This document shows positions 1,400 through 27,107 of a stretch of 64,000 bases of DNA, one piece after another. The DNA comes from Sporomusa sp. KB1 (GTDB taxonomy: Bacteria > Bacillota > Negativicutes > Sporomusales > Sporomusaceae): assembly GCF_007830295.1 (NCBI RefSeq), contig NZ_VLKC01000002.1, positions 2,203,776-2,267,775 of the forward strand. The letters run 5' to 3'. The notes beneath the pieces are model-generated. The model saw only the letters and a program-made list of their open reading frames with translations. It had not been told where the DNA came from and searched no databases. Made by a program: the position numbers and the translations under genes. The stretch's first letter is position 1, and each line of letters starts with the position of its first letter.

Positions 1400-3052
1400 A
1401 TGGAAATGCTTGATCTGATCATTAAACTTGACGTTGAACTTCGCATCAAGACGGTGCAGCGGGTTGGCGAACAAGCTGCGTTGTATGAAGATAATAGTTA
1501 TGCCGGATTGATAGATCAGGAAATTGACCATGTATTGGGCGGTGCTCTAATGGCGCACGGAACGGTAGAACTTAATAATAAATTTTACCGATATCAGTGT
1601 GTCGCTGAAGCGACGGGAAAAGTGTTATATTTGAGCAGTGATGGAATACTTCTTGATTTTTATAAGCAAATTTTTGATCATATGTCCGAAGGGGTTCAGA
1701 TATATGATCGTAACGGGTATTTTTTATTTGCTAATCCCGCCAGTGAGCTCTTGGAGGGATATGACAGCCGGGCCTATCAGGGAAAGCATCTGCTTGATAT
1801 TTACGATGTCAATGAAGAATATAGTACAGTTTTGACAATTCTAAGGACAAGAAAGCCGGTTGCCAACCGGTGTGACCGCTTTAAGACCAAGAAGGGCACA
1901 GCATTGACAACCATTAATTTTGGCTATCCATTGTTGGTTGACAACAATCTGTATGGAGCGATTGTATTTGAAAGCGACCTGTCGGTATTAAAACGGCTGG
2001 AAAAACGCACGTTCAATCTGGAAGCCTATATTGGAAGTACAGTGCCTGACGGCCAAGCCGCGATGTACACCTTTGATGATATTGTGCACCAAGCGGACAA
2101 TATGAAAGATGTGATTCATTTTGCCAAAAAAGTCTCGCTTACTGATTCAGCAATCTTAATTGTGGGAGCGACTGGAACGGGAAAAGAGCTTGTGGCGCAA
2201 GGCATACATTCATTTAGCTCCAGAAGATATAGGCCCTTTATTGATATTAATTGTAGTGCTGTGCCCGGGAATCTGTTTGAAAGCATATTTTTTGGCACGG
2301 AAAAGGGGGCTTTTACAGGCAGTGTCAGCAAGCCGGGTCTTTTTGAAACTGCCAATGGCGGGACTATTTTTCTTGACGAGGTTAATTCCATTAGTCCGGA
2401 GATCCAGGTTAAGCTTTTGCGGGTATTGCAGGAAAAACGTTTTCAACGTATTGGCGGCAGCAAATACATACAATGTGATGTGCGAATTATTTCGGCAGCA
2501 AATGAAGATCTTAACGCGCTTATGCAGCAGCAAAAAATTCGTATGGATTTCTATTACCGGATATCGACCATTAAAATTGATCTTCCTGCGTTAAAGGATC
2601 GTAACCAGGATAGCCTTTTGCTGGCGCAAAATTTTTTGTGCGAATTGTGTAAACAGTATAGTAGGGAACAGCTAACGATTGCGGAAGAGGTGCTTGCTGT
2701 GTTTCAGCAATATGATTGGCCGGGAAACGTAAGAGAGCTTCATCATGTTATTGAATACGCCTTTAACCGCGCTGCTGATGATGCAAGTATAGTAACGCTT
2801 GAGTGCCTTCCTGACTATTTACGATCGCTGGAAAGGCTAGGGTGTATAACACAGCCGGAACTGGCTGCGAAAGTATATGCAACAGAAGGCACAGGGACTT
2901 TTGATGAACATATGGAACGGTTTGAATACGAATTAATCTTTCAGACGTTGGCAGCAAACAACGGAAACATTACTCATAGCGCTCAGCAACTGGGAATGAG
3001 TAGGCAAAGCCTACAGTACAGGATGAAGAAATTACAGCTATATGGCTCTTAG
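1400..3052 (+). CDS. Sigma-54-dependent activator, PAS + AAA+ + Fis-type HTH (RocR/NtrC-like)
   Basis: 550 residues. The N-terminal ~85 residues are not assigned. A PAS domain spans about 88-200, with the typical start in which a protein asks what the environment holds. The AAA+ sigma-54 interaction domain follows, with Walker A GATGTGKE at 256-263, the sigma-54 contact loop at 303-308 and Walker B (TIFLDE) near 330. A Fis-type helix-turn-helix closes the protein (about 515-545). The contact loop reads GAFTGS rather than the usual GAFTGA. There is no receiver domain, so a small molecule is the likely signal. A perfect -24/-12 promoter for the symporter gene lies about 300 bp downstream, making that unit the obvious target. 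Starts at 1400 and 1406 are both possible behind GGAGG at 1391; the second has better spacing. Confidence 0.93.
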   Translation: MEMLDLIIKLDVELRIKTVQRVGEQAALYEDNSYAGLIDQEIDHVLGGALMAHGTVELNNKFYRYQCVAEATGKVLYLSSDGILLDFYKQIFDHMSEGVQIYDRNGYFLFANPASELLEGYDSRAYQGKHLLDIYDVNEEYSTVLTILRTRKPVANRCDRFKTKKGTALTTINFGYPLLVDNNLYGAIVFESDLSVLKRLEKRTFNLEAYIGSTVPDGQAAMYTFDDIVHQADNMKDVIHFAKKVSLTDSAILIVGATGTGKELVAQGIHSFSSRRYRPFIDINCSAVPGNLFESIFFGTEKGAFTGSVSKPGLFETANGGTIFLDEVNSISPEIQVKLLRVLQEKRFQRIGGSKYIQCDVRIISAANEDLNALMQQQKIRMDFYYRISTIKIDLPALKDRNQDSLLLAQNFLCELCKQYSREQLTIAEEVLAVFQQYDWPGNVRELHHVIEYAFNRAADDASIVTLECLPDYLRSLERLGCITQPELAAKVYATEGTGTFDEHMERFEYELIFQTLAANNGNITHSAQQLGMSRQSLQYRMKKLQLYGS

Positions 3053-3067
3053 TGCAAAATTTTTCTT

Positions 3068-3099
3068 AAATAGACGCCGAATTATTTGGCGTCTATTTT
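3068..3099 (+). terminator. Terminator after first sigma-54 activator
   Basis: An 11-bp stem (AAATAGACGCC with GGCGTCTATTT) ends in TTTTG and closes the regulator's transcription unit. The rest of the 420-base gap to the symporter gene holds an inverted repeat at 3183 and a sigma-54 promoter at 3357. Confidence 0.8.
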
Positions 3100-3182
3100 G
3101 TTTGCGATACCAAGCATTTTGAGAAAACTAAAAAGAATAGTGCAGAAAAATTTGGCGGTACATAATTGCGAAATTTGAAGCG

Positions 3183-3201
3183 ATAGCAAATTGTTTGCTA
3201 T
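3183..3201. promoter_or_regulatory. Candidate upstream activator site for the first sigma-54 activator
   Basis: ATAGCAAATTGTTTGCTAT is a perfect palindrome with 8-bp arms and a 3-bp centre. It lies about 155 bp upstream of a -24/-12 promoter, the usual distance for a sigma-54 enhancer site. That the PAS/AAA+ protein at 1400 binds it is inference. Confidence 0.6.
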
Positions 3202-3356
3202 ATTAATGAAAAGTTCATGATAAGCTTACCAAAAATGATAGTAGACTTTAGTAAAATGGCAAATATTCTTCGAGCAAGCTATAGAAATAGCGGAAAAAGT
3301 GTTTTAATTCAGTATATTTAAATAAAATGTCTGCTAAATAAAGACGGTCTTGGATT

Positions 3357-3371
3357 TGGCACAAATCTTGC
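3357..3371 (+). promoter_or_regulatory. Sigma-54 (-24/-12) promoter for the symporter unit
   Basis: TGGCAC, five bases, TTGC: an exact match to the sigma-54 consensus with the GG and GC dinucleotides at the required spacing. It sits about 105 bases before the symporter start, and a sigma-54 activator gene is immediately upstream. Confidence 0.9.
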
Positions 3372-3475
3372 TATATATAAAAGTATAATAGAATATTCCT
3401 TCGAAGGAGGTGGGGGGAAGCTAGACATAGCAAGGGACATAAAGAAAATATATTAATTTCAAAAGGCAGGTGCTT

Positions 3476-4882
3476 ATGTTGTTGTTGTCGACATTTGACA
3501 ATGTAGTTATTGGAGTATTTACTATTTTTATTGTAGGCATTGGGGTGTATTTCTCGAGAGCGGTTAAAGATATGGAAAGTTTTTATCTGGGCAGCCGTAA
3601 TCTTCCTTGGTCTTTAATTGTAGGCGCTCTAGTTGCTACCTGGTATGGTGGGGTAGGCACTATCGGCACTGTGGAATATGGCGCTATATATGGACTTTCC
3701 GTTTGGGTAATCTGGTGTGTGACGGCTCATGCTGGACGGATGCCGCTAGCCTTATGGGTTGGACCGAAAATTCATATTAGAACTGATATTACAGTGCCTG
3801 ATCTTTTAGAAAGTACTTATGGGAAAGGTGTGGCTGTTCTTGGTGCCCTTCTGATGTTTATATATTGCACACAGGTGGGAAATGTGACGGCCATGGGGTT
3901 TATTGGCGAAGCCGCTTGGGGGATTAGTAATGTGACAGCTGGTGCTCTTTGTGTTGGCCTGGTTGTAATCTTGGCGGTGTTAGGTGGACTTATGGGGGTT
4001 GCGGTAACAGATATGGTGTTTTTCTGGGCCATGTGTTTTGGTTTAACCATGGTTATGCCGGGACAATGGACAGATGTTGGTGGTTGGGCGGGGCTGCAGC
4101 AAGCTCTTGCCAGTACTCCCAAAATGCTAGAACCTCTGGGTGGACTTACGCCAATGAAAGCGTTTATGTTGGTCGTATTGTCTTTTGGGGTATACGCAGA
4201 TCCAACCTTTTACCAGAGATTTTCGGCAGCCGACTCTCCTAAAGCAGGCCGGCGGGCGTTATTGTCCTGTTTTGTCATCTGGATTTGTTTTGATATTGTA
4301 TTAACACTGGCAGGGTTGATTGTTAAGGTTAAATATCCTGATATGGCACCTGCCGAAGGTTATATTAAGCTTGTTTTGGGAAGCCTGCCGGAAGGTGTAA
4401 GAGCGTTGTTTATTATCGGGTTAGTGGGTGGAACAGTTTCGGCTCTAGATGGATATTTTCTTTCAGGTGGGGCGACACTTGCCAATGATCTTTATGCCAG
4501 ATTAAAGAAAGACAGTCTTACCCAGAAGCAATTAGTCACCGCTAGCAGGGTGGGTATTGTTATTGTTGCGGCATTGGCATTGTCGGTAGCTTTCCAATTT
4601 CCAACGGCCCAAGACGCTTTCATTTTTGTTAGCAGTCTTTGGATGGCTGCGGGGTTTGTCCCAATTGTAGGCGCACTGGTATGGCCGGGGCAGAAAACGG
4701 CCTTAGGTGGTTATCTGGGACTTATCACAGGCGCGCTGGTATTTTCATATTTCAAGTTTTTCCCACTGAAAGCCTTTGAACTGGAGCCACTGGTTGCAGC
4801 CTTGCCAGTATCATTTGTATTATGGATTATTGGCAATCAGTTTGGTAAAACTGTTCAAGAAAAATCAGAGGAGGCGGTATAA
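3476..4882 (+). CDS. Sodium:solute symporter (SSS family)
   Basis: About 468 residues with some 12-13 hydrophobic segments spread over the whole length. The N-terminal stretch with a Phe-Tyr-Leu-Gly-Ser-Arg-Asn-Leu-Pro-Trp sequence is typical of the SSS family, which couples solute uptake to sodium. The ATG at 3476 has an AGG five bases upstream; a GTG two codons earlier (3470) is also open. The stop overlaps the next start (TAATG), so it is co-translated with the small membrane protein. Sigma-54 control and the hut-like genes downstream point to an imidazole amino acid, urocanate or a related compound as substrate; the sequence alone does not fix which. Confidence 0.88.
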   Translation: MLLLSTFDNVVIGVFTIFIVGIGVYFSRAVKDMESFYLGSRNLPWSLIVGALVATWYGGVGTIGTVEYGAIYGLSVWVIWCVTAHAGRMPLALWVGPKIHIRTDITVPDLLESTYGKGVAVLGALLMFIYCTQVGNVTAMGFIGEAAWGISNVTAGALCVGLVVILAVLGGLMGVAVTDMVFFWAMCFGLTMVMPGQWTDVGGWAGLQQALASTPKMLEPLGGLTPMKAFMLVVLSFGVYADPTFYQRFSAADSPKAGRRALLSCFVIWICFDIVLTLAGLIVKVKYPDMAPAEGYIKLVLGSLPEGVRALFIIGLVGGTVSALDGYFLSGGATLANDLYARLKKDSLTQKQLVTASRVGIVIVAALALSVAFQFPTAQDAFIFVSSLWMAAGFVPIVGALVWPGQKTALGGYLGLITGALVFSYFKFFPLKAFELEPLVAALPVSFVLWIIGNQFGKTVQEKSEEAV

Positions 4883-5112
4883 TGTCTACTGCGAAAAAAA
4901 GTCTGGAGATATCCTGGTTAGGACTTGACGGCTTTTTAGTTGTACTTTATTTCATCGCTGTTGGTGTTATTTATTATGCCATTACAGCCCAAAATGATTG
5001 GATTGTCGGCCAGGCCATACCATATGGAATTATGATTACAGTGACAATCATATTTATCAATTATTTACTTATTGTTCTTAAATTTAACAAGTCACAGGAC
5101 AAGAATCTCTAG
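4882..5112 (+). CDS. Small two-helix membrane partner of the symporter
   Basis: 76 residues with two hydrophobic segments (about 17-35 and 46-66) and short charged ends. Its ATG shares a base with the symporter stop, so the two are translationally coupled. Small subunits of this layout accompany several SSS-type transporters; a role in assembly or stability of the symporter is inferred from coupling, not from a recognised motif. Confidence 0.75.
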   Translation: MSTAKKSLEISWLGLDGFLVVLYFIAVGVIYYAITAQNDWIVGQAIPYGIMITVTIIFINYLLIVLKFNKSQDKNL

Positions 5113-5153
5113 AGCGGAAATGATAAATCAGCGTAATTGGGAGAGTAAAGGCT

Positions 5154-5696
5154 ATGGATATTAAAGCTTTTTCTATTAAAATTGACAAAGAAGAAGCGAC
5201 TAAACTAGCGGAGTCTCGCGGAAAATGGTTGCGAAGATTGCTTTGCGGCGGTAAGACTATTTCTGAAGTCAGATTGCATTTTGTAGAGTGCAAACTCATT
5301 ACTTATGAAATTACGCATCGTCCAAGCTTTCTGGATAAATTTATATTCCGCAAATCACAGGAAAAAAAGCAGAAGATAACTATGCTGGCTGACGGAACCA
5401 ACGGTTCAGTAGCGTGGGTTGATAGTATGCCGGGAATGGTGATGATGGATAACGTAGCTGAAAGCCAGGTTCAGTATGTGGAGAAAGACGATGAATATAT
5501 AATCAATAAAGGACGGGGGATAGCGTTAAAGGTAGTGCACAGGCATGCTGGCGGAATTCCTGAAATTAAGATGCTTAACATCGATAGTGTGTTTAGGCCT
5601 TATTGGATTGCTTTTTTTGACGAAGTCATTGAGGGAAAGAAAGTACATTATTGCCCAGTTGCCGCCGATGGCTGTGGAATTCATAGAACAATTTAA
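5154..5696 (+). CDS. Cytosolic protein of unknown function in the symporter unit
   Basis: 180 residues, no signal peptide or membrane segment. The start at 5154 follows GGGAGAGTAAAGGCT. I see Cys at about 31, 46 and near the C-terminus (Tyr-Cys-Pro and Gly-Cys-Gly-Ile-His), but no recognised domain. It lies 40 bases after the small membrane protein and before a hairpin, so it belongs to the sigma-54-driven unit. It may be a sensor or accessory of uptake; this is unsupported beyond position. Confidence 0.65.
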   Translation: MDIKAFSIKIDKEEATKLAESRGKWLRRLLCGGKTISEVRLHFVECKLITYEITHRPSFLDKFIFRKSQEKKQKITMLADGTNGSVAWVDSMPGMVMMDNVAESQVQYVEKDDEYIINKGRGIALKVVHRHAGGIPEIKMLNIDSVFRPYWIAFFDEVIEGKKVHYCPVAADGCGIHRTI

Positions 5697-5716
5697 AAAA
5701 GCAGGGAATAGTTAAA

Positions 5717-5770
5717 CAAAAGGCTGTAGATGGGCCTTATTGATGATTAAAAGCCCATTAAAGCCTTTTG
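5717..5770 (+). terminator. Terminator or attenuator between symporter unit and HAL homologue
   Basis: Arms CAAAAGGCT...GGGC and GCCC...AGCCTTTTG form an interrupted stem followed by TTTG. It may end the sigma-54 transcript or allow partial read-through into the lyase gene. Confidence 0.6.
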
Positions 5771-5847
5771 TTTGTCGCAATGTTCTGTAAGTGTTTTCCA
5801 CCATTAAAGTATTGATAAAATTGAGCAATAGAACTAGCATTATGGAC

Positions 5848-5871
5848 GGGAAAGGCAAGCTGCCTTTTCCC
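5848..5871 (+). promoter_or_regulatory. Hairpin just before the HAL homologue ribosome site
   Basis: GGGAAAGGCA, three bases, then TGCCTTTTCCC form a 10-11 bp stem that ends about seven bases before the AGGAGG of the lyase gene. It could protect the 5' end of the mRNA, attenuate transcription or tune translation. Confidence 0.45.
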
Positions 5872-5892
5872 TTTCACTAGGAGGCAGTTGTT

Positions 5893-7443
5893 ATGGAAGA
5901 AAAAGGGAATATCGATAATGTACCACCTGTTGTATTGGGTGGACAAGTGACAATGGAGGACTTGGTGGCAGTGGCTCGGCAGGGAGCTCAAGTGCAGTTC
6001 TCTGAGGAATACTGCGAGCGGGTGAACAAATCCCGGAGACTTGTGGAGAAATGGGTTGGTGAGAGCCGGGTGATGTATGGCATTACTACTGGCTTTGGTT
6101 CGCTATGCACGCAGGTAATTTCACCAGAGGAAACGGCGCAGCTGCAACGTAATATCGTGTTATCACACGCTACTTCTGTAGGGGAGCCCTTATCAATTGA
6201 AGAGGTACGGGCGACGTTATTTATGGTACTGCAAAATGTAGGGCAGGGCTTTTGCGGCGCCCGACTGGAAACGGTAGAACTGTATCGGCAGTTTCTTAAT
6301 CGTGGTCTTACACCGTTTGCTCCCAAGGAGGGTTCGGTAGGCTATCTTAGTCCGGAAGCGCATATGGCGTTAGTTTTGATTGGTGAGGGACAAGCCTATG
6401 TGAATGGTGCGTTGCTGCCTGCTAGAGAAGCATTGCGGCAAGTGGGACTTTTGCCGACAGAACTGGCAGCCAAGGAAGGATTAACCCTGGTTTCCGGAAC
6501 TACCAGTGTGACTGCGCTAGGGGCGCTTGCGCTCTACGACATGTTAAATGCGGCAAAATGTGCTGACATTATTGGCGCTATGGCACTAGAGGTGCTAAAA
6601 GGGACTACGCGCGCCTTTGATGAGCGTCTGATGAGCGTCAGGCCGCATGAAGAGCAATGCAGTACAGCCGCCAATGTAAGAAGCATATTAAACGATTCAG
6701 AGATTGCGGCACACTTTTGCAATTATCGTTTGCAGGATGCGCTGTCACTGCGCTGTATACCCCAACTCCACGGTGCTGCCAAGAAAACACTGCAGGATGC
6801 AATGAAAACCATTGAGATAGAAATGAACTCTTGCTGTGACAACCCGATTTTGTGGCCAGAGGATGACGATGGCGAGGCTATCTCCGGCTGTAACGCCGAT
6901 TCTTCTTATGTAGGGATTGAGATGGACTCTGCCTGTATTGCGGCTACCGCGCTCGCTAAAATGTCAGAGCGCCGGAATAATCGCTTGGTGGATGGACAAC
7001 TTTCGGGATATTCCAGTTTTCTTATTAAAAACCCTGGGCTCAATTCGGGGTTAATGATACCGCAATATACACAGGCGGGTTTATTGAATGACATGAAAAT
7101 ATTATCGTATCCGGCAACTGTTGATGGGATACCTACCTGCGGCAATCAGGAAGACTACGTGGCGATGGGCTATAATGCTGCAAAAAAAGCTAGGCAGGTT
7201 GCCCAGAAGCTGGAGTTTATTCTGGCCATTGAGCTGCTGTCTGTCTATCAGGCACACCAATTTATCGAAGATGACAAAGCGCCGGCGACGGCTGTCCAGA
7301 CTGTTTTGAAGGAAATTGCCCGTACGGTACCTGTCATGAACGAGGATATTTACCTATATCCCCATATTAATAACCTAAGACACCTGATTCATACGCAAAA
7401 GCTAGTGGCGTTGGTTGAAGAAAAGATTGGCAGAGTGCTGTAA
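5893..7443 (+). CDS. HAL/PAL-fold lyase lacking the MIO triad (hutH-like)
   Basis: 516 residues, collinear with histidine ammonia-lyase over the whole length. Family residues kept: Tyr62 in YGITTGFG, His92 in LSHATSVGEP, Arg287 in LSLRC and Glu420 in NQEDY. Where active HALs read GSVG-Ala-Ser-Gly-Asp-Leu, this protein reads GSVGYLSPEAH (147-157): the Ala-Ser-Gly that cyclises to the MIO electrophile is absent and three residues are missing. The usual active-site Asn (NGT) is Ser201, Tyr280 of the Pseudomonas enzyme is Leu284, and Phe329 is Ala335. A normal MIO mechanism is therefore not possible. Known MIO-independent members of this fold include ergothionase, which eliminates trimethylamine from ergothioneine. 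Its place before hutU-hutI-ftcD suggests a urocanate-type product. Strong AGGAGG at 5879. Most tools would call it hutH; I am sure of the fold, not the substrate. Confidence 0.9.
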   Translation: MEEKGNIDNVPPVVLGGQVTMEDLVAVARQGAQVQFSEEYCERVNKSRRLVEKWVGESRVMYGITTGFGSLCTQVISPEETAQLQRNIVLSHATSVGEPLSIEEVRATLFMVLQNVGQGFCGARLETVELYRQFLNRGLTPFAPKEGSVGYLSPEAHMALVLIGEGQAYVNGALLPAREALRQVGLLPTELAAKEGLTLVSGTTSVTALGALALYDMLNAAKCADIIGAMALEVLKGTTRAFDERLMSVRPHEEQCSTAANVRSILNDSEIAAHFCNYRLQDALSLRCIPQLHGAAKKTLQDAMKTIEIEMNSCCDNPILWPEDDDGEAISGCNADSSYVGIEMDSACIAATALAKMSERRNNRLVDGQLSGYSSFLIKNPGLNSGLMIPQYTQAGLLNDMKILSYPATVDGIPTCGNQEDYVAMGYNAAKKARQVAQKLEFILAIELLSVYQAHQFIEDDKAPATAVQTVLKEIARTVPVMNEDIYLYPHINNLRHLIHTQKLVALVEEKIGRVL

Positions 7444-7570
7444 TTTGGTTAGATAAGATTGCTTTTCTGCTACCGCTCTTGGTGTCCAACAGGATTTATT
7501 ACTGTGTTTGTCGAAAAAATCTGTGATAAATGCACTGTGGCTAACGTATAGGGGTAAGAGGATTGCTGAA

Positions 7571-10500
7571 ATGAACGAGTTATATGCGGTTTTATTGGGG
7601 AGTCCTGAAGTTTACTGGAATGGCAAACGATTGTTTTTTCCTTTTTCTAAGGCCGAAGCCTTGTTGTATTATTTATTGGTGAGGAAGCATTCGTCGCGCG
7701 AAGAATTGGCAGCTTTGCTATGGCAGGATAAGGAGGAGGTGGCAGCCAGAAAAAATCTGCGCAATACCCTCTATTTGCTGAGAAAGCTGACAGCAGAGGA
7801 ATTGGTTGTAACACCCTCACGGGCGAAGGTGCTGCTAAATACTGATGCTGTCAGTATTACTACCGATATTCAGGAATTTAATGAGGTCTCTCAGGAAGAA
7901 TCGCTAGTGCTATACAGGGGCGATTTCCTGGCTGGTTTTGCTTGCAAGGACGCCGATTCTTTCGAAGACTGGGTAAACAGACAGCGCGACAGTTTTAAAG
8001 CGAATATAATTGACCGGCTTACCAAGGTTATTGTCAGCCGGTTAAATAATAAGGATTATAGTGCGGCGGAACGTTATCTCAAACAGTTACTCCTCTTGGA
8101 TGAGTATAATGAGAGTGCGTGCCGAACCTTGATGAAACTGTATGAACGCTCTGGAGCTTTTGCCAAAGCGATAGAGTTCTATGATTGTTTAGCAGGTAAG
8201 CTTAGCAGTGAATTGGCAATTAGTCCCCAAGGTAAGACGCAGGAAGTCTATGAACGTGTAAGGTCGAAACTGGTCAGCCGAGTGGCAGTAGTACCGGCAG
8301 AACAGTCGGCTGAAAGCTTTTTTGGTCGCGAGCGGGAACTAACCTGGCTGCGAAATAGGGTGACTGATTTCTGTGCAGAACGATCTCCCTGTGCGTGCGT
8401 TATTTTGAGCGGTGAGCAGGGTGTTGGGAAAACCATGATTGTTCAGCGAATGCAGGAGATGATGGCTGCTGAGAATGTAACAGTGTTACGGACTCAGTGC
8501 TATCAAGCGGAGCTGGATTATCCCTATAAAGCCTGGAACTCCATTATATGCCAGGTTATGGAGCTGCTTACTCAGCGTGGTGAACTATTGCCTGCTATCT
8601 GGTATCAGGTGATTGCGTATGTTTTTCCGGCAGTTCTCAATAATCCTGCGATGGCTGGCCGGAATCAGGCCGTAAGTGGTTATGCTATTCATTCCGGCAT
8701 AATTGAAGAGGTTATGTGCGGCATCATAGAAAAGATTGCCGCGCAAAGAAAAGTGTTGCTATTTATGGATGATATTCAATGGCTGGATCATCAGGGACGG
8801 TCAGTACTGCGGCAGCTATTGCGGACAGCACGGCGAACTATTTTGTGCATCGCAACCTGCCGGAGTGAATATCAGGACCAGGTAGACTTGTTAGCCGGGG
8901 ATTTTAGCCAGAATGATTTGGTAGAGCAGCTTACTGTTGAAAATTTCAGTAGGGCGGAAGTAATTCGGTTTTCTGAGCTAATGCTGCCGGCAGATAAAAT
9001 TACGACAGGACTGCAGCAAAAACTATATGAGTATACTGAAGGCAACGCCTTGTTCTTGGTGGAAAGCTGTAAGCTGATCAAAATGGGGCAAAATGTGAAC
9101 TGTTTGTCGCCGCGGCTGCGAAGTGTTTTGCAGGAACGGGTTAATGTGCTTTCCGATAATGCCAGAAAAGTGCTTGATGTCACTTCTGCCTTTTTTAGTA
9201 ATGTTGGCTATAATGAGCTGCTGGCTGTATGCGGGATGAATGAATTTGAAATTGTGGAAGCTATTGAGGAGTTGCAGCACAAGCGCTTGATTCAGGAAAT
9301 CAATGATTCACGCCTGGGACTACGGGCGCCGGTATATAAATACAGCCATATTCGCATTAGAAGTTATGTGTATGAGCAACTGTCATCGTCAAGGAAAACA
9401 CTGATTCATAAACGGGCAGGCAGTTATTTAGAAGAACTGATGGATAAGGATTCCTTTGGGCGGGATGTGTATTCTGAAATTCTTTATCACTACTCGCAGA
9501 TTAACGAAAAGAGCAAGGTGCTTGAATATACCATTAAGCTTGCGGAAAAATACTGTTGTCCGCAGTATGAATTATTTCCTGATTTGAGCAGAACATATAG
9601 TGGGTTTGTTTTTGAAAACAAATTGCAGATCATGGGCTATCTGGATAAAATTAAGGATTTGCTGGCGGCTTTAGCAGCCGAGCAAATGCCCTGGGAGCGG
9701 TTGAACCAATTTCAGGCGGCTTACCTGGAGATGTTGGGACGCTATCATATTTGGCGTGGGGATCACCACAGCGGTTTAAAAGCGATTCACCAGCTGCTAC
9801 GCCTTGCAGCGAAGAAAGGCTTTGCCGATTACTTTATTAAAGGTTGTCAGCAAGTTGTGTATTGTGCCATTCAGATTCGCAGACCCAGACTTATCGAGCT
9901 TTTTGCTAATAAGCTGCTAAACACGGCAAACGAAGCCAACCTGGAAGAAAAAAAAGCTGTGATGCAGCGGTTTATGGGCATTGCTTATGCCTTACGTCAG
10001 GAAAAAGAGCTGGCAGAACAGTATTACCGCCAATCAATTTCTCAGTACAAGCGTCTGAGTGAACGGCCAGATGAGTTTAGCCTGCATATTGCCGCCGGTT
10101 ATAATTATATTGGCGATTTAAGGCGTATGGCAGCTAATTTGCCCGAAGCGCTCTATTACTATGAACAGGCAATAAGGGTGGCCGGACGGGGTATTGGCAG
10201 TGCCGGGGTTGCTATTTTTCTGGTTAATGCCGGGTATACAGCCTATGATTTGCGGGAATATAGCAAGGCGGCTGCTTATTTGGAAGCGGCGCGGGCTATT
10301 GAAGGACAGCTTGGCGAGTATCAGGGTTATTGGTGCCTCAGAAGCTATTGTACATTACATTGTATTCTGGCCTTATTAGCCATTAGAGACAACTGCCTGC
10401 AACAGGGACGCCGTTATTTGGAAAAAGCGGCTGATTTTTCGGAGAAATACCACGATGCTTATCAGGCCGGGATTATTTTCAGGACAAAATTGGAGGTTCG

Positions 10501-10666: not shown

Positions 10667-10681
10667 GGATATGTCAAATGA

Positions 10682-10790: not shown

Positions 10791-10817
10791 AATTGCAAAA
10801 GGTAATTTGGAGGGGTA

Positions 10818-18223: not shown

Positions 18224-18261
18224 TCACCGCCTAATGATAATAACAATAGTGTAGCTAATAG

Positions 18262-18287: not shown

Positions 18288-18416
18288 TAAAATGATGCGC
18301 AAAGTTTTGATGCAGTTGGCTCTTATAATGTATTATAACAACACCTAACTTTTGAGATTTAAACGTAAAAGGCAGATAAGGAAGGAAAAAAATTACTTAG
18401 CAAGAATAAACGCTTT

Positions 18417-18431
18417 TGGCACGAATTTTGC
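18417..18431 (+). promoter_or_regulatory. Sigma-54 (-24/-12) promoter for the second HAL homologue
   Basis: TGGCACGAATTTTGC matches the sigma-54 consensus exactly. It implies a start of transcription near 18443 and an unusually long leader of about 200 bases before the TTG start at 18641; I see no known riboswitch in that leader. Confidence 0.9.
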
Positions 18432-18640
18432 GAATATTAAGGTAGGCGCTAAGTTAACAGAATTACGATAATGGTGGTATATATATACTCGGCAGAAATA
18501 ATTTTGTAAAAATATTTAGTACGTTGGAGATAGTCGCAAGAATAATTTGACACCTTATGACAACAAACGCCGATAAAATTAAGAAATGGTAGGTAAGAGA
18601 TAATTATAATAATGCACAAAGACAGAGAGGGGCAGATATT

Positions 18641-20158: not shown

Positions 20159-20293
20159 TAAAGCCCGGATTGAACAATACTGTAGGCTCTCGGAAAGATA
20201 ATGCTAGAGATGGATAAAGGTCAATTGATAATCCGGGAGCGTACATAACGGGAGGGGGGAGTGTGTGCTGATTAGCAAATAAGGAGGTGAATA

Positions 20294-20365
20294 TTGAACA
20301 GGAAAATAAAAAAAGCGCCGCTTCTTACTCTGCGGCAACAGAGCAAAGCGGCAAATAAGAAATGA
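20294..20365 (+). CDS. Possible 23-residue basic peptide
   Basis: TTG at 20294 sits behind a perfect AAGGAGGTGA ribosome site and opens a 23-codon frame rich in Lys and Arg, ending in TGA at 20363. The coding part also folds: GCCGCTT pairs with AAGCGGC, with CTCTG/CAGAG inside. It could be a leader peptide, a small protein or a decaying remnant between the lyase and porin genes. Confidence 0.35.
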   Translation: MNRKIKKAPLLTLRQQSKAANKK

Positions 20366-20423
20366 ATAAATTCAATTACATTATATTAACAAATAATTAT
20401 GCAGAATTCAAGGAGGTAAATAG

Positions 20424-21674
20424 ATGAAGAAGAATATAGCAGCTACGTTAGCCCTGGTGTTTGGACTGAGCATTGCCGGGACAGCGTTTGCCGCTAATCC
20501 TTTCGCGGATGTTCCGGTAAAACATTGGTCGTATGACGCTGTTCAGCAGTTGGCTAACGATGGCATCATTACCGGTGGCGGCGATGGCAGTTATCAAGGT
20601 GAACGTGCAGTTAGCCGCTATGAAATGGCTGCCGTTGTTGCTAGCGCGATAGCTCATGCTGACAAAGCCAATGCGGCGGATAAAGCCCTCATTGAAAAAT
20701 TGGCTGTGGAGTACGAAGCTGAACTGGAAGGCCTAAATGTTCGACTGACTAAGGTAGAAAAGAAGCAGGGCAATATTAAGTTCTCGGGAGAGTTCCGGGA
20801 GCGCTATGAGTGGACAAAGGTTGATCCTAGTACAGGTACAGATTCCACTGCGATGAAAACGCGTGTACGTTTAAATATGTCTACTCAGATGTCAGATGAT
20901 ATAGCGTTTAATGCCCGGTTCCACAGTGAGTCAAAGAAAACTAACGAAGCTGGCGATGCATATATAGATCTTGCCTATTTATCAGGCAAACTTTTTGAGG
21001 GCGTGAATTTTACCGCAGGTCGTATGGTTTTGCCTGTTGGCAAAGGTCTTACTTGTGATACCTGGCATGACTGGGATGGAGCGAAGATTAGCTTTGGCAA
21101 TAAAGTAAAAGTTAGCGCAGGTGCCGCCAAGTATCATAGTACAACAGGCTGGGATTCGCCTAACTATGCATATGCTGATCTGAACTATGCATTTACTCCT
21201 AACTTCGACATGAGCTTAGCTTACTTTACAGATAGTCAAGACTATAATGAGTATAAGACGAAGGCCATTGGTTTCAGTTATGCCTTCAACAAATTTGTCT
21301 TAAAAGCTGAATATGGTAAAAACGGGGCTGAAAACGCAAAACAGGTAAATAATGGCTCTGAGGCCAAAGCTTGGTATAGCAATCTGAAATACATGGGAGC
21401 CAACGCGGCTAAAGAGCATTCCTATGGTGTCTGGGTAGGCTATAGAAAGGCCGATAAAGCCTTTGACCCAGAATGGTGGAGTACTCCGGAATCCAGCGAT
21501 GTAGCGGGAGGTCTTGCTGCTCTTAACGACACCAAAGGTTTTGAATATGGTGTTGAGTATACTGTATTTAAAAACGGTATTCTGACTGTACAGTACAATG
21601 ATATGAAAGACAAAAATGGTAATAGCCCAGATGGTAGACGCAATTTAATTACTAGCTTATCCTACTCCTTCTAG
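20424..21674 (+). CDS. SLH-domain outer-membrane porin (OmpM-like)
   Basis: 416 residues. A signal peptide (cleavage after Thr-Ala-Phe-Ala, about 23) is followed by one SLH domain (about 25-80) with NPFADVPVKHWSYDAV and the ITGGGDGSYQGERAVSRYEM segment. A coiled-coil stretch follows (about 80-115), then a beta-barrel of about 300 residues ending in an aromatic strand (LSYSF). In Negativicutes such proteins tie the outer membrane to the cell wall through SLH and form pores. AAGGAGG precedes the ATG. Its place between a lyase and a BCCT transporter suggests a substrate-related pore, co-induced with the pathway. Confidence 0.93.
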   Translation: MKKNIAATLALVFGLSIAGTAFAANPFADVPVKHWSYDAVQQLANDGIITGGGDGSYQGERAVSRYEMAAVVASAIAHADKANAADKALIEKLAVEYEAELEGLNVRLTKVEKKQGNIKFSGEFRERYEWTKVDPSTGTDSTAMKTRVRLNMSTQMSDDIAFNARFHSESKKTNEAGDAYIDLAYLSGKLFEGVNFTAGRMVLPVGKGLTCDTWHDWDGAKISFGNKVKVSAGAAKYHSTTGWDSPNYAYADLNYAFTPNFDMSLAYFTDSQDYNEYKTKAIGFSYAFNKFVLKAEYGKNGAENAKQVNNGSEAKAWYSNLKYMGANAAKEHSYGVWVGYRKADKAFDPEWWSTPESSDVAGGLAALNDTKGFEYGVEYTVFKNGILTVQYNDMKDKNGNSPDGRRNLITSLSYSF

Positions 21675-21729
21675 GTGAAAAAATAAGAAAATTACTATGA
21701 TGAAGAGCAAATGAGGAGGTAAAAAATTC

Positions 21730-23373
21730 GTGATTTCTGGAAAGAAGAAAATTCGTTGGGAAATCTTTGGTCCGATGACGGCAATTATTATTGCTTGTGT
21801 TATTGCCGCAATTACCATTCCACAGCAATTTTATAACGCTGAAAACGCTTTAGTTGAAAGCGCGATTCAAAACCTTGGCTGGCTGTTTGACCTGTTTGGC
21901 ATGTGCGCCGTGCTGTTCTGCTTTTATTTAATGTTTACCCGCTATGGCGATGTAAGGCTAGGCGGGCCGGATGCTAAACCGGAGTATTCCACCTGGAGCT
22001 GGTTTGTACTTACGTTAAAGTGCGGTATTGCAATTGGTATTTTATTTTGGGGTATTGCCGAGCCGCTTTATCACTTTTGTACACCGCCTAAAGTTCTCGG
22101 TATTGATCCTTACAGTGAAAAAGCAGCGATATTCTCGCTGTCAACGGCTACGCTGCATTGGACGCTGACACCATACGCTATGTATACATTGGCTGGCCTT
22201 GCCGTAGGGTTGGTTCATTATAACCTCAAGCTCCCTTATACCCAGGGTTCAACACTGTATCCTATTTTCAAAAATCGTTCCTTTGGTTTTATCGGCACTT
22301 TGCTTGATAATCTGTGTTTGTTCGCCATCGTGGGTGGTGTGGCCGCCGTTATGGGGGTTCTTGCCATGCAAATCGGCAGTGGTCTTCATATTCTGACAGG
22401 CGTTAACACCGGACCGCATATTTGGTCGATTGTCATTATAATAGCGACAATTGCCGCCGTCACCCTGAGTATTAGCGGCATCAAACGCGGTATTAGTATC
22501 ATGGCAAAAATTAATACGAGTATTTTTATTTTTCTGCTGTTGTTTGTACTCTTCTTTGGGCCAACAGCCTTCATTCTAAAGTTGGGAACAGCATCGCTGG
22601 GAGATTTTCTACAGAACTTTTTCACAAAATCGTTATTTCTTAGTCCGATTGACCAGTCTGACTGGCCGCGTTGGTGGACTGTTTATTACTGGGCAATTTG
22701 GCTTGCTTATGCACCGATGAGCGGCATGTTCTTTGCTCGGGTGGCCTATGGACGGACTATCCGTGAATTTATTCTGTGTAACCTTGTTGCTACTTCGCTT
22801 TTCAGCATGGTGTGGTTCTGGATTTTTGGAGGTTCAGCTGTATTCTTTGAATGGCAGACCAAGGGTCTCTGGACAATCATTTCTCAGCCGCAGGGCGGTC
22901 TTGAAGCTTCACTTTTTGCCTATTTACAAAATTTGCCGCTTTCGACTGTACTTAGCTGGGTCATGTTAGGTACCATCATTACTTCATTCAGCACTATGGC
23001 CGACTCTATGACGACCACGGTAGCCGCCATGAACACCACCGGGAACACTAAGGATGATCCGGAACCGCCTTCTTACATGAAAATCGTTTGGGGCGTGCTT
23101 ATGGGCGGCATGGCACTTATTACCTTAACCGTCGGTTCAGGTGGTAAAATTTCTGGTATTGACGCGACAAAAATGATTGCTACCGTAGCCGGTATACCTA
23201 TCCTGTTTTATGCTATCGCCCAATGCTATTCTGTTTTCGTCATACTCTTCAACCATAAAAAGTATGACGTAACCTATTATCCCGATACTGCAGAGAAAAT
23301 TGATATTCCGGCTCATCTTTGCGAGGCGGAAGAAAGTGAAGACAAACCGCTAACAAACAACGTCGGATCTTAA
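21730..23373 (+). CDS. BCCT-family betaine/carnitine/choline transporter
   Basis: 547 residues from a GTG behind GAGGAGG, with 12 expected membrane segments. Family marks include GILFWGIAEPLYH and the signature around 310-340 with WTVYYWAIW, Ala-Pro-Met-Ser-Gly and GRTIREF. BCCT carriers move quaternary or trimethylated ammonium compounds, by ion symport or by antiport of substrate and product. The usual Trp-Trp of the signature reads Ile-Trp here, a change in the aromatic substrate box. The gene lies 55 bases after the porin and ends before a terminator. Import of a histidine betaine or exchange for a product is inferred from the neighbouring lyase. Confidence 0.92.
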   Translation: MISGKKKIRWEIFGPMTAIIIACVIAAITIPQQFYNAENALVESAIQNLGWLFDLFGMCAVLFCFYLMFTRYGDVRLGGPDAKPEYSTWSWFVLTLKCGIAIGILFWGIAEPLYHFCTPPKVLGIDPYSEKAAIFSLSTATLHWTLTPYAMYTLAGLAVGLVHYNLKLPYTQGSTLYPIFKNRSFGFIGTLLDNLCLFAIVGGVAAVMGVLAMQIGSGLHILTGVNTGPHIWSIVIIIATIAAVTLSISGIKRGISIMAKINTSIFIFLLLFVLFFGPTAFILKLGTASLGDFLQNFFTKSLFLSPIDQSDWPRWWTVYYWAIWLAYAPMSGMFFARVAYGRTIREFILCNLVATSLFSMVWFWIFGGSAVFFEWQTKGLWTIISQPQGGLEASLFAYLQNLPLSTVLSWVMLGTIITSFSTMADSMTTTVAAMNTTGNTKDDPEPPSYMKIVWGVLMGGMALITLTVGSGGKISGIDATKMIATVAGIPILFYAIAQCYSVFVILFNHKKYDVTYYPDTAEKIDIPAHLCEAEESEDKPLTNNVGS

Positions 23374-23392
23374 TCCCACCATTATTGAAATG

Positions 23393-23434
23393 GCCCGACA
23401 ATCAGATAGGACATTTGATTGCCGGGCTGTTTTT
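23393..23434 (+). terminator. Terminator after the BCCT gene
   Basis: GCCCGACAATCA pairs with TGATTGCCGGGC, one mismatch, followed by TGTTTTTT. It separates the BCCT unit from the molybdenum hydroxylase genes, at least partly. Confidence 0.85.
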
Positions 23435-23482
23435 TCAACAAAAATTTTAAGAATATCAGTGATAGCTGAAGAAGGTGAAATA

Positions 23483-23959
23483 ATGATAATAGACTTTACT
23501 GTAAATGGGAAAAAACACACATTGGAGCTAGAACCGCAAGAAAGGCTGCTGGATACACTACGTCTTAGGCTAAAACTTACAGGTGCCAAGGAGGGGTGCG
23601 GTGAAGGTGAATGCGGCGCCTGTACGGTTATCATGAACGGGGAGGCTGTTAATTCCTGCATGGTATTGGCGTATCAGGCTAGGAATGCCGAGATATTGAC
23701 AATTGAGGGATTGGCACAAAACGGTGGGCTGGATGAGGTTCAGCAGGCTTTTGTCGATAGTGGTGCTGTCCAGTGTGGCTATTGTACTCCTGGTATGGTA
23801 ATGAGTACCAAGGCATTGCTTTTGAAAAAAAATAACCCAACAGAAGCCGAAATTAAAGAAGCTCTTGCTGGTAACCTCTGCCGCTGTACCGGCTATGTAA
23901 ACATTGTAAAAGCAGTTAGAGCTGCTGCTGACGCATTGAATGGGGGCCAAGCTAAATGA
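23483..23959 (+). CDS. Molybdenum hydroxylase small subunit, two [2Fe-2S]
   Basis: 158 residues from the ATG at 23483 (GAAGG upstream). The N-terminal plant-type ferredoxin domain has CGEGECGAC, and the C-terminal helical domain has CGYCTPGM and CRCTG. These are the two iron-sulfur centres that carry electrons from the molybdenum site to FAD in xanthine dehydrogenase and CO dehydrogenase relatives. An in-frame ATG at 23390 lies in the terminator region and is not the start. Its stop overlaps the next start (ATGA). Confidence 0.95.
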   Translation: MIIDFTVNGKKHTLELEPQERLLDTLRLRLKLTGAKEGCGEGECGACTVIMNGEAVNSCMVLAYQARNAEILTIEGLAQNGGLDEVQQAFVDSGAVQCGYCTPGMVMSTKALLLKKNNPTEAEIKEALAGNLCRCTGYVNIVKAVRAAADALNGGQAK

Positions 23960-24804
23960 CCGGCTTTAAAATTGCAGGTTTCTTGAAGTTGGATGATGTA
24001 TTACAGGCGCTGACACATACAAGTGCCAAAACGGCATTTATTAGCGGTGGTACTGATTTTATCAACAACGGTGAGGGTGAAAACGCCGAACTGGTAATAG
24101 ACCTCTCGCAAGTTGCCGATTTAAAATATATCAGAGACAGTGGCGACGAGGTTAGGATTGGTAGTGGAACGACCTTTGCCGCCCTTGCCGCCAGCCCGAT
24201 TATCGTGAGCAAAGTGCAAGCGTTGGCACAGGCTGCAGGCCAAATCGGCTCAGTACAAATAAGAAACAGGGCAACGCTTGGCGGCAATATTGCCAGTGCT
24301 TCCCCGGCCGGCGACAGTCTGCCTGTATTGGCGGCCTTCAATGCAAGTATCCACACTGCGGGTCCGCAAGGCAGCAGAGTATTGACAGTAGTAGAAGCTT
24401 TAACAGGGCTACAGGATAAAGAGTTAATAACAGAAATTGTGATTCCGGCTCCAGCCGGAAACCGCAGCGCTTTTGTGAAAATTGGCAGTCGGTCACAGGT
24501 GACTATCGCCAAGATTAGCCTGGCGGCCACGGTTGAATATGACAATAGTAAGAGGAAAATAATTGCTGGTAAAGCTGCGATGGGTGCATTGGGCAAAGCG
24601 CCAGTATGTCCGCTTACAGTGCAGCAATTCTTCAGTCAACGAGTGGTTGATGAACCTTTTGCTGCCGATTTATCACAGCTGCTTGCCGAAACGGTAGACG
24701 AGATGATAACAGGCCGGGCTTCACATCCGTACAAAAGGGCAGCCGTAAAGGGCCTGGCTTATGATTTGGCCGGACTATTATTTAACGCTTGCGAAAATAC
24801 TTAA
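23956..24804 (+). CDS. Molybdenum hydroxylase medium subunit, FAD-binding
   Basis: 282 residues. FAD-binding motifs include SGGTDF near the N-terminus and the RNRATLGGNIASASPAGDSL segment (about 108-127), followed by the C-terminal CO dehydrogenase flavoprotein domain. It passes electrons from the iron-sulfur subunit to an acceptor. The start codon overlaps the stop of the small subunit gene by four bases, so the two are translationally coupled. Confidence 0.95.
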   Translation: MTGFKIAGFLKLDDVLQALTHTSAKTAFISGGTDFINNGEGENAELVIDLSQVADLKYIRDSGDEVRIGSGTTFAALAASPIIVSKVQALAQAAGQIGSVQIRNRATLGGNIASASPAGDSLPVLAAFNASIHTAGPQGSRVLTVVEALTGLQDKELITEIVIPAPAGNRSAFVKIGSRSQVTIAKISLAATVEYDNSKRKIIAGKAAMGALGKAPVCPLTVQQFFSQRVVDEPFAADLSQLLAETVDEMITGRASHPYKRAAVKGLAYDLAGLLFNACENT

Positions 24805-24830
24805 TTACGATAGGGTCAGGAGGTAGCAAG

Positions 24831-27107
24831 ATGGACGATAAACCTGCGTGCAATTTCAAATATGTTGGCAGGTCCATACCCATTGAGGATGGAGCGGCTA
24901 AAGCAAGCGGTTGCATAAAATATACTGGGGACATGGTTGTAGATGGAATATTGTATGCCCAACTGGTATTTAGCCAGGTTCCCCACGGTCGAATCAAAAA
25001 TATTGACATTTCTGAGGCCATGGCTGTGCCTGGCGTTGTAAAAATATATCAGCATGACAACTCATCCCAGATAAAATTTAATTCGCAAATGTGGTTTGCC
25101 GGACAGAATGCAGTTGAAGACCAGGAGCTTTTTCCAGAAGTAGTACGGTATGTTGGAGATACGGTAGCAGCGGTAGTCGCAGAAACTAGAGAGGCTGCTC
25201 TGGCGGCGGCAGATCTTATCAAGGTTGAATACGATATTTTGCCATTTGTTATTGATCCAGAGGCCGCACTTAGTGGACAGGTTGTCCTTCATGATAGCGG
25301 CAATCCGTTTTTTACAATGGAAGTTAGCTGCGGTGATGTCGAAGCTGTTCTAAAAACAAATGCAGGAGCAGTGGTTGAAGACCGGGTGGAAACACCAAAA
25401 ATTCATCATGCGGCCATGGAAAACCATGTATGTATTGCTGTACCAGACCATCGGGGGAGAATGACAGTATACAGCCCCTGTCAGATTGTATATTCGGTGC
25501 GCCTCATTGTGGCTAAGGTATTGGGGGTGCCGTATCACAAGGTTCGAATTATCAAAACTCCCATTGGTGGGTCCTTTGGCGGCAAACAAGAGGTAACGCT
25601 TGAAACGTATTGCGCCTACTTTGCTAAAGATTTGAACAGGCCGGTAAAAATTGAGTTTGACCGGTGGGCAAGTATTATAGCCACCCGCACCAGAACGAAG
25701 ACGATCGGTTATGTAAAAACAGCGGTAAGACCTGACGGTAAAATCCTGGCGCGCGATATGCAACTCATTGTTGACACGGGAGCTTATACCTCTAATGGAC
25801 GGGCTATTTGTTATGCTATGACTAAAAAGCTGTTTAGGCTATACCGCATTCCTAACCAGCAGTATCAGGCCCGGGCTGTTCACACCAATACAACTATCGC
25901 GGGTGCTGCGCGGGGCTATGGTTCGCCGCAAGTTCAAACAATTGCTGAAATCAATCTGGATAATGTGGCAAGAAGGCTGAAAATGGACCCAGTCGAATTT
26001 CGCCTGAAAAACTTAGTGCATCCCTATGATGCCGACCCGGCCGGCGGGCCCAATCTAGGAAACGCCAGGATTATTGATTGCGTGCGCAAAGGGGCGGAGG
26101 CATTTGGCTGGAACGAAAAATGGAGCCAGCCAAAGCGCGGCGGACGGTGGCAAACAGGGGTCGGAATGGCCTGTGCTACCCATGGGAACGGTTATTACGG
26201 TGCATACCAGGAATTTGGTACAATGACGATTCGAATGCTGGAAGATGGTAGTATTATGCTTAATGCCGGGTTGCATGATTTGGGCAATGGTACGGTAACC
26301 GCCATGAAGCAGATCGTCGCCGAAGTCATGGACATCTCAATGGATATGATCGAAGCACCGGAAGCCGATACCGATGTCAGTCCGTACGATATCGGTTGCC
26401 AGGCCAGCCGGGTAATTCATGTTTGCGGTGCTAACGCTATGCGGGCAGCCGAAGAATTGCGCAGTCTGTTTATAAAAGAGGCTGCTAAGATTCTTACGTG
26501 CAGTGAGGCGGAGGTAGTGCTGGAGGACGGCAGGATCTGGCATAGCGGCGATTCAGGGAAAAGCATGAGCTATGGTCAAATGACGGCAATGATTCAACAA
26601 AGAAATCAGGTCGAGCTTATCTGTACTGTCACCTATCAAGCACCAGCAAATCCCGGTTCCTATGCAGTGAATTTCGTGGAAGTGGCCGTAGATACTTACA
26701 CTGGTTTTGTTAAGGTTGTGGACGTTATAGCAGTACATGATATTGGTCAGGCGATTAACACTGGCTTTGTCGAAGGACAGATTCACGGCGGTATTCAAAT
26801 GGGATTAGGTATGGCAATTGCCGAAGACATTGATTACGATGAAAAGTCAGGCATCGCCCGTGGCAGCCGTTTTAGCAAATATCATCTAGTTAATGCGCCA
26901 GATATGCCGCCTGTCCGGGTCATCTTAATTGAAAAAGGGGAAGAATACGGTCCATATGGAGCTAAAAGTGTAGGTGAAATTGCGACTATTCCAATTACCG
27001 CCGCTACAGTAAATGCTATAAACCATGCGTTGAATGCGAATCTCACTATACTGCCGGTTACACCAGACAAAATTATGGCAAGGCTTGCTGGTCGGCAGAA
27101 TAAGTAA
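24831..27107 (+). CDS. Molybdenum hydroxylase large subunit
   Basis: 758 residues from the ATG at 24831 behind AGGAGG. The N-terminal a/b hammerhead domain and the molybdopterin-binding domain are complete: GGSFGGKQE at 246-254, GAARGYGSPQ at 358-367 and the catalytic Glu716 in SVGEIA. Enzymes of this family hydroxylate an aromatic ring carbon or aldehyde with water. It lacks the CO dehydrogenase Cys loop as far as I can see. Substrate unknown: purines or nicotinate by family, an imidazole compound by neighbourhood. No maturation gene (xdhC type) is adjacent. Confidence 0.94.
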   Translation: MDDKPACNFKYVGRSIPIEDGAAKASGCIKYTGDMVVDGILYAQLVFSQVPHGRIKNIDISEAMAVPGVVKIYQHDNSSQIKFNSQMWFAGQNAVEDQELFPEVVRYVGDTVAAVVAETREAALAAADLIKVEYDILPFVIDPEAALSGQVVLHDSGNPFFTMEVSCGDVEAVLKTNAGAVVEDRVETPKIHHAAMENHVCIAVPDHRGRMTVYSPCQIVYSVRLIVAKVLGVPYHKVRIIKTPIGGSFGGKQEVTLETYCAYFAKDLNRPVKIEFDRWASIIATRTRTKTIGYVKTAVRPDGKILARDMQLIVDTGAYTSNGRAICYAMTKKLFRLYRIPNQQYQARAVHTNTTIAGAARGYGSPQVQTIAEINLDNVARRLKMDPVEFRLKNLVHPYDADPAGGPNLGNARIIDCVRKGAEAFGWNEKWSQPKRGGRWQTGVGMACATHGNGYYGAYQEFGTMTIRMLEDGSIMLNAGLHDLGNGTVTAMKQIVAEVMDISMDMIEAPEADTDVSPYDIGCQASRVIHVCGANAMRAAEELRSLFIKEAAKILTCSEAEVVLEDGRIWHSGDSGKSMSYGQMTAMIQQRNQVELICTVTYQAPANPGSYAVNFVEVAVDTYTGFVKVVDVIAVHDIGQAINTGFVEGQIHGGIQMGLGMAIAEDIDYDEKSGIARGSRFSKYHLVNAPDMPPVRVILIEKGEEYGPYGAKSVGEIATIPITAATVNAINHALNANLTILPVTPDKIMARLAGRQNK

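Follow-up and report, generated by a model that had tools for sequence, protein, structure and literature searches.

A candidate two-entry pathway for the conversion of histidine betaines to glutamate and a putative hercynine trimethylamine-lyase in Sporomusa sp. KB1

Gene content of the locus

We analyzed a 64 kb stretch of DNA from Sporomusa sp. KB1 (G000:C1:2203776-2267775; hereafter the window), which carries two adjacent gene blocks, block 1 (1400-15703) and block 2 (16829-27107). Each block contains one homolog of histidine ammonia-lyase (HAL, or HutH), here named lyase 1 and lyase 2. The genome is 6.06 Mb in two contigs (completeness 100, contamination 9.49), and its host is taken to be an acetogen on the basis of its genus. 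All genes listed in the initial annotation, which was made from the sequence alone, were recovered at their places, including two Lyase_aromatic proteins, hut/ftcD/fchA-like genes, an SSS symporter, a BCCT carrier, a porin, a molybdenum (Mo) enzyme, a methyl-accepting chemotaxis-type protein and three regulators (at 1400, 7508 and 16829). The features are as follows (coordinates in the window, strand, description):

1400-3052, +, EBP1, sigma-54 activator with PAS and Fis-type helix-turn-helix domains, probable regulator of block 1 (PF00158, PF02954, PF00989)
3357-3372, +, predicted sigma-54 promoter TGGCAC-N5-TTGCT ahead of the symporter, the sole exact match in 64 kb
3470-4882, +, SSS-family sodium:solute symporter, candidate importer of block 1 (PF00474)
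4882-5112, +, hydrophobic small protein of 76 codons, possible transporter accessory; its ATG overlaps the symporter stop (read from the sequence)
5154-5696, +, protein of 180 aa with no function assigned (no Pfam or NCBIfam match)
5893-7443, +, lyase 1, HutH-like, without MIO cofactor (see below), predicted hercynine (histidine betaine) trimethylamine-lyase (GSVGY-LSP motif, residue signatures, BCCT linkage of relatives, predicted HAL fold)
7508-10666, +, BTAD/AAA/TPR (SARP-STAND-like) regulator (PF03704, PF13191)
10818-12860, +, HutU, urocanate hydratase, long form (TIGR01228 437 bits, cut-off 375; 6uek 602 bits)
12885-14147, +, HutI, imidazolonepropionase (TIGR01224 469 bits, cut-off 298)
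14169-15062, +, FtcD, glutamate formimidoyltransferase (TIGR02024 441 bits, cut-off 221)
15077-15703, +, FchA-like cyclodeaminase/cyclohydrolase, FTCD_C (PF04961 over threshold; NCBIfam FchA 199 bits, under the cut-off of 275)
15845-16663, +, methyl-accepting chemotaxis-type signaling protein (PF00015)
16829-18223, -, EBP2, sigma-54 activator, probable regulator of block 2 (PF00158, PF02954)
18417-18432, +, predicted sigma-54 promoter with 1 mismatch, 5' of the ergothionase homolog (motif match)
18641-20158, +, lyase 2, ergothionase homolog without MIO, predicted to convert ergothioneine to thiourocanate and trimethylamine (6s7j 485 bits; TIQK lysine)
20424-21674, +, SLH-domain porin (PF00395, PF13609)
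21730-23373, +, BCCT carrier, candidate ergothioneine importer (PF02028)
23390-23959, +, [2Fe-2S] subunit of a xanthine-oxidase-family enzyme (PF01799, PF00111)
23956-24804, +, FAD subunit of the same enzyme (PF00941)
24789-27107, +, molybdopterin catalytic subunit, predicted reductive thiourocanate desulfhydrase (PF02738, PF20256)

The hut genes and canonical HutH

HutU, HutI and FtcD all scored above their curated cut-offs. Together with the FTCD_C/FchA-like gene, these proteins are shared with the formimidoyltransferase branch of the Hut pathway, from which the locus differs in that its linked lyase lacks the MIO-forming triad. No canonical hutH was found within the window or the hut cluster, in line with the initial annotation of this stretch; elsewhere in the genome, however, a canonical HutH is encoded at C1:924532-926031 (708.7 bits, cut-off 539), ~1.28 Mb from the window start. 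As the window HutU is the single urocanase match in this genome, the block hutU-hutI-ftcD-fchA presumably serves histidine as well. HutU stays far below the cut-off of the thiourocanate hydratase model (290.8 bits, cut-off 930) and also well under that of S-methyl thiourocanate hydratase. Recognition by the urocanase model but not by the thiourocanate hydratase model fits a block 2 that yields urocanate.

A predicted ergothioneine route in block 2

The best PDB match of lyase 2 was the ergothionase of Treponema denticola (6s7j, 485 bits), the next PDB sequence reaching only 229 bits. The two proteins are alike in size, in the type of motif that replaces the MIO site and in the lysine at the TIQK site, which is presumably the residue that holds the thiolate and which is present in 23 of 25 members of the lyase 2 group. 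To describe gene linkage, 29 ergothionase stretches were considered, of which four without a match of at least 38% and four with less than 4 kb of flank were set aside, leaving 21. A homolog of the Mo subunit lies within 4 kb of ergothionase in 16 of them and within 5 kb in 19 (in the window it begins 4.6 kb after the ergothionase gene), and a BCCT gene lies within 4 kb in 17.

The Mo enzyme is of the three-subunit xanthine-oxidase-family type. Its catalytic subunit has 4-hydroxybenzoyl-CoA reductase, a reductive member of this family, as the closest solved relative (276 bits; next 227), although substrate and gene linkage are different. According to a paper citing Feng et al. (PMC12771579), a xanthine-oxidase homolog from the gut breaks an aromatic C-S bond reductively during the catabolism of ergothioneine, and a second citing paper (PMC13405746) names a thiourocanate desulfhydrase that releases H2S. 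The Mo enzyme fits this kind of enzyme, so that a desulfuration step probably exists in the locus. The initial annotation preferred hercynine over ergothioneine unless such a step was present; with an ergothionase homolog and an enzyme suited to C-S cleavage side by side, this preference is not supported. It is most likely that block 2 converts ergothioneine to urocanate, trimethylamine and H2S.

The locus thus likely includes an ergothioneine route of an already described kind. The gut pathway (Feng et al., JACS 2025, known through its citing papers) likewise combines ergothionase with a C-S-cleaving enzyme of the xanthine-oxidase family; compared by description, our locus adds the urocanate-to-glutamate genes, a second lyase without MIO, the porin, the chemotaxis-type protein and the sigma-54 regulators. 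Ert-type utilization, as represented by NCBIfam models (thiourocanate hydratase, hydantoin-5-propionate hydrolysis), shares the ergothioneine start, but no ErtD- or ErtE-type match was observed among the annotated genes of the locus and the window HutU does not reach the thiourocanate hydratase cut-off.

Lyase 1 belongs to a family without the MIO triad

In HAL, an Ala-Ser-Gly triad forms the 4-methylideneimidazole-5-one (MIO) cofactor, which is required for its chemistry. Both lyases had been described as lacking this site, and the alignment confirmed it: the motif is GSVGY-LSP in lyase 1 and GSIGEADI in lyase 2, as opposed to GSVGASGDLAP in the HutH of the same genome. A contig scan with lyase 1 gave 88 places, and the best 80 were used as loci for all linkage counts of lyase 1. 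They are distributed in Sporomusa, Clostridium, Blautia, Oscillospiraceae, Acidaminococcus, Acinetobacter and others. Sporomusa silvacetica DSM 10669 is the nearest named relative among them; its proteins from EBP1 to FchA are each 95-98% identical to those of the window.

Among 133 aligned lyases, the lyase 1 group was defined by an identity to lyase 1 of 55% or more; it comprises 70 distinct sequences, lyase 1 itself included. All 70 carry GSVGY---L in place of the triad, which makes a sequencing effect an unlikely cause of its loss. The equivalents of Tyr53, Gln277, Arg283 and Glu414 are kept in every member and His83 in 68, while Asn195 is replaced by Ser in 63 and Tyr280 by Leu in 68. The same changes were observed in ergothionases (Asn195 to Ser in 22 of 25, Tyr280 to Leu in 24 of 25), and both residues are retained in all 20 distinct triad-bearing lyases (22 rows less two duplicates). 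The site of the ergothionase lysine is Tyr throughout the lyase 1 group and in 13 of the 20 triad lyases. Four rows are omitted from these counts (three Ser-Ser-Gly lyases and one distant GSVGY protein). Y280, together with F329 and D145, is named in PDB titles of HAL mutants. Therefore, lyase 1 looks like an enzyme that has kept the imidazole pocket of HutH, with an ergothionase-like amine side and no sulfur contact, which is the pattern expected for hercynine.

Apart from these residues, lyase 1 is distant from ergothionase (6s7j), with a deletion of three residues at the MIO site compared with one in ergothionase and without the lysine; profile comparison gave 244 bits for ergothionase and 418 bits for the best HutH. 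Against the hutH equivalog model TIGR01225, lyase 1 remains below the cut-off (506.8 bits, cut-off 539). A distant GSVGY protein that adjoins lyase 1 in S. acidovorans (L008:6047-7624) exceeds the same cut-off (543.7 bits) even though it has no MIO triad, so passing the model is no proof of MIO. The predicted structure of lyase 1 has the HAL fold (pLDDT 85.6), with TM-scores of 0.91 to Pseudomonas putida HAL, the best PDB match, and 0.85 to ergothionase; it is a monomer model, which cannot judge an active site to which several subunits contribute.

A careful phylogenetic analysis of 59 rows divided the lyases into three sides, namely the lyase 1 group (support 100/99), ergothionase (support 100/100) and all others (81/52). 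The same three sides appeared in a quick tree of 87 rows; both trees were built after removal of one to four rows with long branches. In a further quick tree, with 111 rows, five triad lyases instead stood beside the lyase 1 clade. Because the trees disagree, we do not claim whether MIO was lost once or convergently twice.

In seven loci from Blautia and relatives (L036, L048, L057, L061, L062, L067 and L070), a second, diverged copy without MIO (51-56% identical to lyase 1) follows directly behind lyase 1, which suggests paralogs for other betaines.

Genomic neighborhood and distribution of lyase 1

A link to betaine-type transport had been proposed for this locus, and it is supported by the relatives of both lyases. 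In addition to the BCCT genes near ergothionase, a BCCT gene no more than 3 kb away was observed in 42 of the 58 lyase 1 loci that have at least 3 kb on both flanks and a lyase at least 55% identical. No BCCT gene was observed near canonical HutH in the 17 control neighborhoods that had enough flank (20 fetched). Furthermore, the 419-base regions upstream of BCCT-lyase, SSS-lyase or lyase units contain a sigma-54 site with at most one mismatch in 28 of 68 cases, compared with 2.1% of 2040 random windows; these windows are mostly coding, and matched intergenic sequence would be a stronger control. All but one of the 28 positive regions fall among 41 loci with a nearby sigma-54 activator. Within the window itself there is no clear excess of matches with up to two mismatches (54 versus 44.6 by chance; 10 of 100 shuffles reach 54). 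In 16 loci a recurrent membrane-protein-like open reading frame of ~84 aa is also present near lyase 1, mostly directly behind it (e.g., L019:12118-12375).

To investigate the genomic context, we examined 41 lyase 1 genomes (the host and 40 chosen from the 80 loci, mostly isolates), and 40 of them contain urocanase. Taken as sole proof of the substrate, this co-occurrence was rejected, because a hutH match above the cut-off is present in 37 of the same genomes. Urocanase is present in each of the four without such a match, namely Pectinatus frisingensis, Natroniella acetigena, Pseudoflavonifractor sp. 60 and Acinetobacter sichuanensis. The last of these groups HutU, HutI, lyase 1 and BCCT inside 10 kb (L153) and carries, in addition, a distant lyase that bears the triad and has Gln in place of Glu414 (L104). 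In Natroniella, HutU, ergothionase and lyase 1 share one 44 kb contig. In addition, 17 genomes in a 300-genome sample of the class had a hutH score in the lyase 1 range (465-535 bits). Two were removed on account of a motif of another type, and urocanase is present in all 15 that remain, most of them assigned by score with the motif unread, versus 63 of 300 over the cut-off overall.

The two blocks can be separated among relatives: in Sporomusa malonica, ergothionase, Mo enzyme and hut block lie together (L089) and BCCT-lyase 1 at another locus (L007), and S. silvacetica has block 1, its hutH-model matches comprising one HutH and lyase 1 only. Such separability is more in keeping with two feeders that supply a single urocanate route than with a linear pathway.

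A two-entry model and its alternatives

Considering these results, we regard the breakdown of histidine betaines to glutamate through two entries as a probable, though far from certain, function of the locus. In entry A, the action of lyase 2 on ergothioneine would yield thiourocanate and trimethylamine, after which the Mo enzyme of block 2 would reductively desulfurize thiourocanate to urocanate and H2S. In entry B, lyase 1 would eliminate trimethylamine from hercynine, again giving urocanate; no MIO would be needed, since the trimethylammonium group is already a good leaving group. Both entries would join at HutU, HutI, FtcD and FchA, leading to glutamate and a one-carbon unit on tetrahydrofolate, and the two sigma-54 activators probably switch the blocks separately, with one promoter each. 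The convergence of both blocks on urocanate and glutamate had been foreseen in the initial annotation, which assumed a single step of trimethylamine removal; removal as such is retained here, but two lyases with different substrates appear to act as two feeders. Directly visible in the sequence are what the genes encode, the lack of MIO, the patterns of residues and linkage and the promoter matches; the substrates of the two lyases, the reductive direction of the Mo enzyme, the regulation and the use of trimethylamine are deductions. Lyase 1 is likely a hercynine trimethylamine-lyase, and we found no description of a hercynine lyase or of lyase 1 in the open-access literature. For the family as a whole, we lean towards a large, unrecognized group of MIO-free betaine-lyases that has hercynine trimethylamine-lyase as its core and paralogs for other amino-acid betaines, often coupled to BCCT under sigma-54 control; microbes would thereby produce trimethylamine and urocanate from a source that has so far gone uncounted.

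On the other hand, several observations weigh against this interpretation. In the window, lyase 1 adjoins the SSS symporter with no BCCT beside it, and only 10 of the 42 loci have HutU within 8 kb of lyase 1. Urocanase is absent from one lyase 1 genome (G016), and its presence elsewhere could reflect histidine use, given the frequency of hutH. Among the genomes without a hutH match above the cut-off, those of Pectinatus and Pseudoflavonifractor (G011 and G020) are draft assemblies in which lyase matches are partial, which makes hutH absence weak there. The residue pattern also varies: seven members of the lyase 1 group do not have Ser at Asn195 (six Asn, one Asp), and among 12 more distant members nine keep Asn195 and three keep Tyr280. 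Two tandem relatives (L060:794-2605 and L060:2602-4155) have Asp for His83 and possibly act on a different betaine. The roles of these residues, such as imidazole binding by Glu414 and His83, are our assumption from the HAL and ergothionase literature. Moreover, lyase 1 exceeds the broad NCBIfam subfamily model for histidine ammonia-lyase (NF006871, 531.7 bits, cut-off 524), and with regard to block 2, no Mo-subunit homolog was found in the stretches of two of the 21 ergothionase loci (L088 and L099).

These points leave room for other substrates of lyase 1. The enzyme might accept a different imidazole betaine substituted at C2, for instance S-methyl-ergothioneine or ergothioneine sulfonate, or be a second ergothionase. 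Chemistry of this kind has precedents, in that a model for S-methyl thiourocanate hydratase exists, a degradation pathway for ergothioneine sulfonate is indicated by the title of a cited paper, and a different MIO-less lyase clusters with a true thiourocanate hydratase in L148. We nevertheless consider it unlikely, as the invariant Tyr at the ergothionase lysine site, shared with most triad lyases, and the low scores of the window HutU for both hydratases argue against it. A further proposal, that lyase 1 is a histidine ammonia-lyase working without MIO and local to the hut block, would agree with the HutH-like closest sequences and folds, the score for NF006871, the adjoining hut genes and the kept imidazole pair. 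It is very improbable, however, in view of the requirement of HAL chemistry for MIO, the hutH already present in most lyase 1 genomes and the BCCT linkage, never seen in the HutH controls, which points to a quaternary amine. We give just as little credence to a non-imidazole aromatic betaine (tyrosine or tryptophan betaine) with incidental hut neighbors: most BCCT-lyase 1 pairs are indeed without nearby hut genes and some genomes have several lyase 1 paralogs, but the conservation of Glu414 and His83, the former being Gln in three phenylalanine/tyrosine ammonia-lyase-like proteins of the alignment, and the near-universal urocanase speak for an imidazole substrate.

In the case of block 2, the Mo enzyme could be an ordinary hydroxylase with urocanate or imidazolonepropionate as substrate, or else resemble xanthine dehydrogenase and be unrelated to this route. 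All subunits expected of a hydroxylase are present, and scores against xanthine dehydrogenase profiles are high (595), although below the cut-off of 780. The linkage to ergothionase, the reductive nature of the nearest solved relative and the C-S-cleaving homolog reported, in papers citing the original study, from ergothioneine catabolism make this an unlikely option, and reductive desulfurization is the reading that we retain for this enzyme.

Fate of trimethylamine and implications

The use of trimethylamine by the cell, suggested in the initial annotation, is plausible. Seven MttB-family matches were identified in the host genome, two of which are adjacent and contain one in-frame TAG each, roughly two thirds of the way through the gene (G000:C1:243279-248588, L126). 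On the opposite strand, ~1.4 kb upstream of the pair, lies a PylS gene; in this genome, two matches to the PylS C-terminal domain exceed the cut-off. Hence, a pyrrolysine-type trimethylamine methyltransferase is probably encoded, by which trimethylamine could feed the methyl branch of acetogenesis; entry of both trimethylamine and the one-carbon unit into the methyl pathway of an acetogen would be plausible. By eye, the gene just 5' of the MttB pair resembles a corrinoid protein.

Hercynine is a betaine found in mushrooms. If lyase 1 acts on it, several gut Clostridia and some Acinetobacter would release trimethylamine by an uncounted route, and a further enzyme of the HAL fold would work without MIO, making the dispensability of this cofactor directly testable. 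For acetogens, betaine use would be joined to methyl-group metabolism and H2S release. As lyase 1 passes a histidine ammonia-lyase subfamily model, surveys based on names would probably label the family HutH. One recent survey reported ergothionase in few bacterial genera, with BLAST matches named histidine, phenylalanine or tyrosine lyases and divergent homologs left uncounted (PMC13405746).

Neighboring genes and additional observations

Several other genes of the locus recur in related contexts. Homologs of EBP1 adjoin many lyase 1 relatives, with 56-60% identity in several Clostridium, Anaerosolibacter and Geosporobacter loci. The counterpart cluster of the 76-codon small protein spans three loci and that of the 180-aa protein six (own genome counted in both), relatives of the latter being near an SSS gene in several loci. 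The type of the BTAD/AAA/TPR regulator recurs close to ergothionase or hut genes, and a gene 95% identical to the SLH porin adjoins the ergothionase of another Sporomusa (L090).

A third type of MIO-less lyase was observed in the same class. At L148:1792-12761 (G049), a HAL-like lyase (11085-12761) with the motif GSLGVGDLQP and Val at the Tyr280 site is clustered with an OsmF-like betaine-binding protein, a thiourocanate hydratase over the cut-off (1008.7 bits, cut-off 930) and ErtD/ErtE-like amidohydrolases that are under their cut-offs. By BLAST, L149 (G067) resembles this cluster. The HutH-like lyase of L150 (G058) has Ala-Thr-Gly in the position of the MIO triad and was found as a two-piece match in a frame of 665 codons. 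Finally, beyond the two blocks, an FMN riboswitch (RF00050, 114.5 bits) is located at window positions 30170-30320.

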